DNA of 5,088 bases from Cyanobacteria bacterium UBA9971. GTDB taxonomy: Bacteria > Cyanobacteriota > Vampirovibrionia > Gastranaerophilales > UBA9971. Shown in pieces: positions 440-1,866 of the stretch. Where the stretch lies: the NCBI GenBank assembly GCA_003499955.1, contig DNRP01000042.1, positions 17,631-22,718 of the forward strand. The letters are read 5' to 3'. The notes beneath the pieces were generated by a model, which did no database searches, was not told the DNA's origin, and was given only the letters and a program-made list of their open reading frames with translations. The stretch's first letter is position 1. Each line of letters opens with the position of its first letter. The position numbers were made by a program, and so were the translations under genes.

Positions 440-1153
440 ATGCCCGAGCTAATTAAAAAAGCCTATACAACAAAAAATAACCTGATAGAGCTTTTCATTA
501 CAGAAAAATCAAATCAACAAAAAGGACAAACTGTTCTGATTATTGGAGTTTTTCACGGTGATGAACCGGAAGGCGAGTTTCTGATTAATAAATTAATGGA
601 ACAGATTGCCGCGTCGCATCCGCAGGATGCTCCTCGCAATGACAAAAACTGTCATTCTGAGGAACGAAGTGACGTAAGAATCTTAAACAAAATTTTGTTT
701 ATCCCCTGCCTTAACCCCGACGGAAAACACTTAAAAACAAGAACAAACGCAAACGGAGTGGACTTAAACAGAAATTTCCCCACCAAAAACTGGGAATTAT
801 CTAAAGAAAAAAATACTTATTATTCCGGTAATTCTCCTGCAAGCGAAATTGAAACAAAGTTTTTGATTGAAATAATTGAAAAATATAAACCTGACAGAAT
901 TTTAACGCTGCATATCCCTTATAGAGTTGTAAATTACGACGGACATGCAAAAGAAATCGCTGAAAAAATCTCAAAACTTAACGGTTATCCAGTACAAGAA
1001 AGTATAGGCTACCCTACCCCGGGTTCTTTCGGGACTTATTGCGGAATTGAGAGAAATATTCCCACGATTACTCTTGAATTACCGGAAAACGAACCTGTTG
1101 AAAAGCTCTGGGAAGACAATATAGAAGCTTTTTATTATTTTGTAAGTTTTTAA
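440..1153 (+). CDS. M14-family zinc metallopeptidase, MpaA-like (murein peptide amidase type)
   Basis: A 237-residue cytoplasmic-type protein with no signal peptide. It carries the M14 metallopeptidase landmarks in order: GVFHGDEPEGE with zinc ligands H39 and E42, NPDG at 92-95, NGVDLNRNFP at 105-114 with the substrate-binding Asn-Arg region, SPASEIET at 132-139, the third zinc ligand H158 in LTLHIP, and the catalytic Glu E213 in ITLELPENE. The layout and size match MpaA, which removes meso-diaminopimelate from murein tripeptide during peptidoglycan recycling. The exact substrate cannot be read from sequence, and other gamma-glutamyl or succinylglutamate-type substrates remain possible. No strong Shine-Dalgarno precedes ATG 440, so translation is probably coupled to the DUF2283 gene 6 bp upstream. 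Oddly, residues of about 58-78 are encoded by a palindromic repeat inserted between a helix and the conserved FIPCLNPDG strand. The 3' end overlaps a convergent gene by 4 bp. Confidence 0.88.
   Translation: MPELIKKAYTTKNNLIELFITEKSNQQKGQTVLIIGVFHGDEPEGEFLINKLMEQIAASHPQDAPRNDKNCHSEERSDVRILNKILFIPCLNPDGKHLKTRTNANGVDLNRNFPTKNWELSKEKNTYYSGNSPASEIETKFLIEIIEKYKPDRILTLHIPYRVVNYDGHAKEIAEKISKLNGYPVQESIGYPTPGSFGTYCGIERNIPTITLELPENEPVEKLWEDNIEAFYYFVSF
612..674 (+). repeat. Structured palindromic repeat inserted in frame in the peptidase gene
   Basis: A 63-bp segment (21 codons) that folds as a three-way junction. The outer stem CGTC 612-615 pairs with GACG 671-674. A first hairpin is GCATCC-GCA-GGATGC at 616-630. 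A second hairpin has TCCTC 631-635 with GAGGA 659-663 and AATGACA 638-644 with TGTCATT 650-656 around an AAAAC loop. The translated residues (SHPQDAPRNDKNCHSEERSD) are polar and unlike M14 proteins. Wording of the type TGTCATTCTGAGGA is familiar from dispersed intergenic repeats in many bacterial genomes. In-frame translated insertion recalls the Rickettsia palindromic elements, though homology to those is not claimed. Confidence 0.75.
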
Positions 1154-1833: not shown

Positions 1834-1866
1834 TGTCACCCTGAACTTGATTCAGGGTCTATCTGG
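1834..1866. repeat. Short dispersed-type palindromic repeat after the XRE gene
   Basis: ACCCTGAA (1838-1845) and TTCAGGGT (1851-1858) form a perfect 8-bp stem around CTTGA, preceded by TGTC and followed by TCTATCTGG. The wording is that of a dispersed repeat common in bacterial genomes, and its start TGTCAyyCTGA matches the right arm of the repeat inside the peptidase gene. It sits five bases after the XRE stop. No T-run follows, so it is a poor intrinsic terminator, although it could still protect the mRNA 3' end. Confidence 0.55.

Follow-up and report, generated by a model that had tools for sequence, protein, structure and literature searches.

The gene for an M14 peptidase in a draft genome that likely belongs to the Gastranaerophilales, non-photosynthetic relatives of the cyanobacteria, carries, at positions 603-683 (plus strand) of the window (the whole stretch of 5,088 nucleotides that was analysed), an 81-bp sequence of 27 codons without a counterpart in most homologues. 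With a probability of roughly 85%, we interpret this sequence as two units of a dispersed CGTC-type palindromic repeat, which were likely inserted in frame and are predicted to be translated as a tolerated, disordered loop of 27 residues. The element is of a known kind, a CGTC-type REP, in a lineage for which our searches of open-licence literature found no report. The host genome (hereafter G000) is a draft in 188 contigs and is 83% complete.

Two palindromic units in a peptidase linker

The host gene (440-1153, plus strand, 237 codons in the open reading frame list) encodes an MpaA-like protein. It scored 66.3 bits against the Peptidase_M14 profile (cut-off 21.6), and the MpaA chains 5hxd and 4axv were its top solved relatives in a profile comparison. 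The original prediction described a palindrome of 63 bp, at 612-674, inside a gene that otherwise keeps all M14 catalytic residues. An intact frame and retained motif residues were confirmed, but the boundaries had to be redrawn: 612-674 is only the inner part of 603-683, which consists of two units and corresponds to residues 55-82 (with partial end codons) rather than to residues 58-78. Unit A (603-644, minus strand) has a TGTC tag, ATTGC/GCAAT arms and a GCATCC-GGATGC tip, and reads TGTCATTGCGAGGAGCATCCTGCGGATGCGACGCGGCAATCT on the minus strand; among the matches listed, its relatives are 80-95% identical across the full unit. Unit B (650-683, plus strand) has a TGTC tag and ATTCT/AGAAT arms, and reads TGTCATTCTGAGGAACGAAGTGACGTAAGAATCT on the plus strand. 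The two tags are separated by the spacer AAAAC (645-649), across which the units face each other tag to tag, that is, inward. The motif ATGAC is found at 639-643 and its complement at 651-655. Since the stretch made up by A and B measures 81 bp, the reading frame of the peptidase is preserved.

A three-way-junction fold had been predicted for 612-674, and its calculated energy of -26.0 kcal/mol, compared to a shuffled mean of -13.2 (z -4.7, with none of the 200 shuffles as good), supports this. Folding of 604-686 gave a z of -5.1. Folded singly, the units performed poorly (z -1.3 for A and -0.1 for B), indicating that the junction requires both. Rfam, searched at gathering thresholds, returned no family within the window. 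At the protein level, the AlphaFold2 model has a mean pLDDT of 91.1, which drops to 55-56 over residues 61-80, between a helix (44-59) and a strand (84-88). Such low values inside a confident model suggest that the insert forms a flexible loop.

The linker was then compared across the best 120 of 7826 matched homologues, 113 of which could be parsed. In nearly all of the insert-free proteins, HG(D/E)E and P-x-x-N-P are 22-29 residues apart, as expected from the short linker foreseen for relatives, whereas the window protein has 46. An A-type peptide was found in seven of these 120 homologues, at 72-100% identity to the window protein: three have both A and B (P0001, P0002 with 91% identity, and P0003 with 80%) and four have A alone (P0004, P0005, P0008 and P0021). 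None has B without A, which suggests that A probably came first at this site and that B was added beside it later. The tree groups P0001 with P0002 (support 98/92) and P0004 with P0007 (96/86), and does not place the first gain. P0007, a protein from the congener G001, may be a deletion remnant, and P0106 has a unit-like stretch of another orientation, as judged by eye. In the 30 aligned loci from a 60-genome search, the A-type peptide was present only in the window's own locus and that of another genome, G007. Thus neither the best 120 homologues nor the 30 loci showed these residues in an unrelated host. In other genomes of the order (loci L057 and L061) the M14 linker has different, longer in-frame stretches (CKPAED...LNAGEAIS), which do not read as the TGTC-unit type.

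A repeat family that reaches into genes

A 91-base query found at least 33 places in the own genome, including itself, with 40 of 288 candidates scored. An exact 14-base motif gave 226 matches in G000, and a looser 13-base motif gave 365, compared to a single match for the reversed pattern in either case; the family pattern demands C or T, then GTC. Matches lie both within and outside genes. The units follow a common plan, in which a TGTC tag is followed by an arm such as ATTGC, ATTCT or ATCCT and, in most units, by GAG; a hairpin of variable sequence then leads to the complementary arm, and a short tail closes the unit. They are 23-46 nt long, with arms of about 5 bp around the variable inner hairpin. 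In our sample the arms start mostly with AT and in a few cases with AC, while the tails begin mostly with CT or CC. When arm bases 2-5 were left free, the arms were exactly complementary in 36 of 38 anchored units, and fell into three types. The tip cores, by contrast, were of 34 different kinds among the 38 units, and their two sides were nevertheless paired in 160/165 cells of 33 tips, against at most 122 in 2000 shuffles.

For the counts on arms, orientation and reading frames, 126 of the 133 units found were kept, and seven with odd arms or a length above 46 nt were dropped. Adjacent pairs had outward tags in 32 of 36 cases and were tandem in the other four. As none was inward, the pair in the peptidase gene is exceptional and the window copy is not the typical unit; two events are more likely than one to have produced it. 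A third unit in the window (1834-1860, plus strand) is similar in its general plan, with a TGTC tag and ACCCT/AGGGT arms, and is located outside the peptidase gene, directly after an HTH_26 reading frame (1625-1828), and of a type found elsewhere in the genome. Two further features of the window are a long and almost perfect inverted repeat upstream of uvrA (about 2118-2170), whose ends are rich in A and T, and a region at about 1380-1520 with palindromes resembling GGGGCTTTGCCCC and runs of AAAGAAAG. The latter looks like another dispersed repeat, and a similar stretch occurs in the G001 context of L023_1604.

The original prediction also proposed that the repeat can spread into coding sequence while keeping the frame open. 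The first part of this proposal was assessed in a sample of contigs C20-C59, picked by number, each of which contributed at most its first 20 kb (488,616 bases in total, 21.8% of the genome). In this sample, 25 of the 126 units lie at least 20 codons deep in reading frames of at least 120 codons, and these occupy 20 of 399 such frames; extrapolation gives an estimated 90 or so carrier frames genome-wide. As 72% of the sample lies that deep inside reading frames, a random distribution would have placed about 90 units there, so that units are depleted in genes and yet present in them. At least one of the intragenic units (L112 7820) is probably due to chance, and those in L095 and L098 are close to possibly misplaced N-termini. 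A Pfam family profile scored above its cut-off in 18 of the 19 carrier frames scanned, out of 21 (L095:3825-4418 and L112:4058-8032 being unscanned). Among the carriers are MutS, MutL, ArgRS, KdsB, KdtA, the dihydroorotate dehydrogenase PyrD and a protein that has the Fe-S domain partnering this enzyme, as well as a GH35 glycosidase, an aminotransferase, two glycosyltransferases, a radical-SAM protein, an HI0933-like protein and a TPR protein. DnaG, LeuRS (at two sites) and QueA also carry units, in loci that had been fetched for holding copies. The same peptide types occur in unrelated proteins. With some twenty other genes carrying in-frame copies in the sampled fifth of the genome, it is likely that the repeat enters genes and that they tolerate it.

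The second part of the proposal was not upheld. The six-frame open fraction of the units is 0.643, below the 0.681 (sd 0.014) of shuffled units, with random genome segments at 0.551, and a frame-safe design was rejected on these values. The in-frame copies look instead like those that selection has spared. Two of the carriers, MutS (L120 10435-13140) and MutL (L113 11865-13697), are mismatch-repair genes, and G000, in which both carry units, has the most motif matches among the 146 genomes of the order examined. REPs within repair genes are commented on in PMC3733652.

Proposed mobilisation and the occupancy of sites

The units could move as single-stranded DNA hairpins, which a putative trans-acting enzyme would copy into new sites or join to them. 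Gene-breaking insertions would be lost, while frame-keeping ones in flexible linkers would survive. One candidate for the enzyme is a Y1 (HUH) transposase of the RAYT type, a type proposed to mobilise GTAG REPs (PMC3733652, PMC6006769), which would have been lost from G000 or be missing from its assembly: PF01797 had no match in this 83% complete genome. In two other genomes (G083 and G102; L126, L127 and L131), three units lie less than 400 nt from Y1 genes, compared to 0.09 expected over six stretches, and units of other arm types adjoin some further Y1 genes (L128, L136, L139, L143). However, this batch was picked post hoc, after the Y1 neighbourhood had been noticed, and a second batch gave one unit against 0.81 expected. 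These counts come from 40 fetched stretches of a longer match list, with L085 left out, and with L130 excluded because its stretch was drawn so as to include a unit. Across genomes, Y1 presence was not associated with REP richness (9/23 REP-rich genomes versus 37/123 others, Fisher p 0.46), and G118, with 216 matches and 96% completeness, is outside the 46 genomes that have a Y1 match. PMC3733652 states that no transposase was found beside CGTC REPs. Given the lack of a cross-genome association, we retained the Y1 enzyme as a rival only, and an unlikely one.

Sites that are empty in related genomes favour insertion of the units, but could also be explained by old ancestral insertions that are now being deleted in most lineages. 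The congener G001 has flanks 76-98% identical to those of G000, and for 38 of the 123 G000 clusters (181 units) both flanks were present in 599,047 fetched G001 bases, out of about 2.1 million. By automatic labels, 25 of these sites lack a unit in G001, six have units and seven are ambiguous. The ambiguous sites were read by eye as two degenerate units (KdtA and L033), two possible remnants (DnaG and M14) and three chance matches. Five of the 25 unit-free sites (L096 1797, L096 13992, L107 282, L120 12420 and L023 1604) are near N runs or gaps above 250 nt. Among all 25, eight correspond to in-frame units of G000, namely those in PyrD, MutS, ArgRS, LeuRS (two sites), two glycosyltransferases and a CCG-domain protein. 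No target-site duplication was readable in 14 cases, of which four gave no result and most others aligned poorly.

Some of the empty sites could indeed be losses, and three observations would fit ancestral insertion: the possible remnant P0007 groups with the A carrier P0004, an apparently related dimer sits in the MutL linker of both G000 and G007 (with none in G002, G003 and G006, in an alignment without G001), and, in contrast to most of the sites compared, the in-frame dimer of GH35 (L091 19741-19827; L208 in G001) consists of two unit sequences that G000 and G001 share. On the other hand, the MutS insert is absent from all five aligned relatives and both LeuRS inserts from all six, so that deletion would need many separate losses. 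Both congeners have far fewer motif matches, 76 and 80 against 365 in G000. The A unit of the peptidase gene argues in the same direction, as its arms are identical in G000 and G007 at 33/33 bases, against 76% identity (463/610) for the gene outside the linker. We consider ancestral insertion followed by deletion to be improbable. The distribution beyond the genus is patchy: at least one motif match was found in 86 of the 146 genomes of the order (range 0 to 365) and in 114 of 244 genomes drawn from the phylum. Between 11 and 93 matches were counted in five genomes that share the class but not the order. For most of the remaining genomes of the phylum the count is 0 to 3; exceptions include G251 (56) and G221 (14).

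An origin within the M14 gene itself, as a lineage-specific linker extension or a regulatory RNA hairpin unrelated to any mobile repeat, would agree with the good RNA fold of the stretch, and is very improbable in view of the hundreds of copies elsewhere in the genome, which rule out an M14-only origin, the peptides of the same types in unrelated proteins and the negative Rfam result. In so fragmented a draft, a misassembly or gene breakage might be suspected, but either is hardly credible for an open frame with its M14 motif residues retained and an A+B layout shared by the database proteins P0002 and P0003.

Insertion of dispersed units remains the preferred explanation. The A units of G000 and G007, with their equal arms, differ at 7/9 tip bases; in genes that are 76% identical outside the linker, this pattern is not expected from simple inheritance of one insertion, and repeated insertion, conversion between copies or rewriting of the tip would fit the sequences. 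It is possible, if doubtful, that occupied sites stay so while the element in them is rewritten, with tips changing on both sides together and pairs being swapped or turned in place. Further examples may be the outward dimer upstream of the M14 gene (L017 2651-2744), where G000 and G001 have different arm types at the same site, two dimers whose order is apparently reversed in G001 (L096 12172 and L111 1645), and the KdtA unit. If this is true, hairpin-templated copying or repeated insertion into linkers would be a continuing source of new sequence in essential proteins.

Relation to known palindromic repeats

Rickettsia is the best-known source of palindromes that lie in frame within conserved genes. 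A resemblance to the Rickettsia palindromic elements had been suggested from the window alone; it holds for those of the CGTC type, to which RPE-4 and RPE-6 of R. conorii are assigned (PMC3733652), but not for the longer RPE-1. CGTC-tagged REPs, as defined in PMC3733652, often have TGTC as their tag, and both units in the peptidase gene begin with this variant. Their stem opens with complementary A/T, as do the ATTGC and ATTCT arms in the window, and their pairs are predominantly outward, as are those of G000, the inward pair of the window excepted. An unpaired tail, the presence of some units in reading frames (in several species) and a patchy distribution are also shared (PMC3733652). The tail is mostly CCA in CGTC REPs and begins mostly with CT or CC in G000. 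Their stems are described as 8-9 bp long and their loops as 4-5, and many units of G000 exceed this length and have a variable tip within arms of about 5 bp. CGTC REPs have no known transposase according to PMC3733652, which compares with a genome without PF01797 here and with some Y1 neighbours in G083 and G102.

RPE-4, RPE-6 and RPE-7 contain an ATGAC motif and lie in frame in housekeeping genes, in solvent-exposed loops (PMC3767692). The units described here resemble them in both the motif and the in-frame position, although the hosts belong to different phyla. Rickettsia orthologues may have elements of different groups near one place, and QueA (tRNA ribosyltransferase-isomerase), which has a unit here (L028 691-1821), has an RPE-4 in Rickettsia (PMC3767692). 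The resemblance to GTAG REPs and REPINs (PMC3733652, PMC6006769) extends to short tagged hairpins, inverted pairs and high copy number. In contrast to them, both units have TGTC in place of a GT(A/G)G tag, and the search for a Y1 gene in G000, which would correspond to the RAYT of such systems, was negative. Our search of open-licence literature found no report of palindromic repeats in Gastranaerophilales or Melainabacteria, and a search with sequence strings returned unrelated papers only.

The host phylum differs from those given for CGTC repeats in PMC3733652 (Proteobacteria, Chlorobi, Bacteroidetes, Spirochaetes and Thermotogae), and the genes with in-frame units include those for MutS, MutL and DnaG, together with three aminoacyl-tRNA synthetase sites. 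Natural pairs of proteins with and without an insert offer a way to ask what a protein tolerates, and the comparison of repeat-rich with repeat-poor sister species offers a route to the mobilising enzyme of CGTC REPs.
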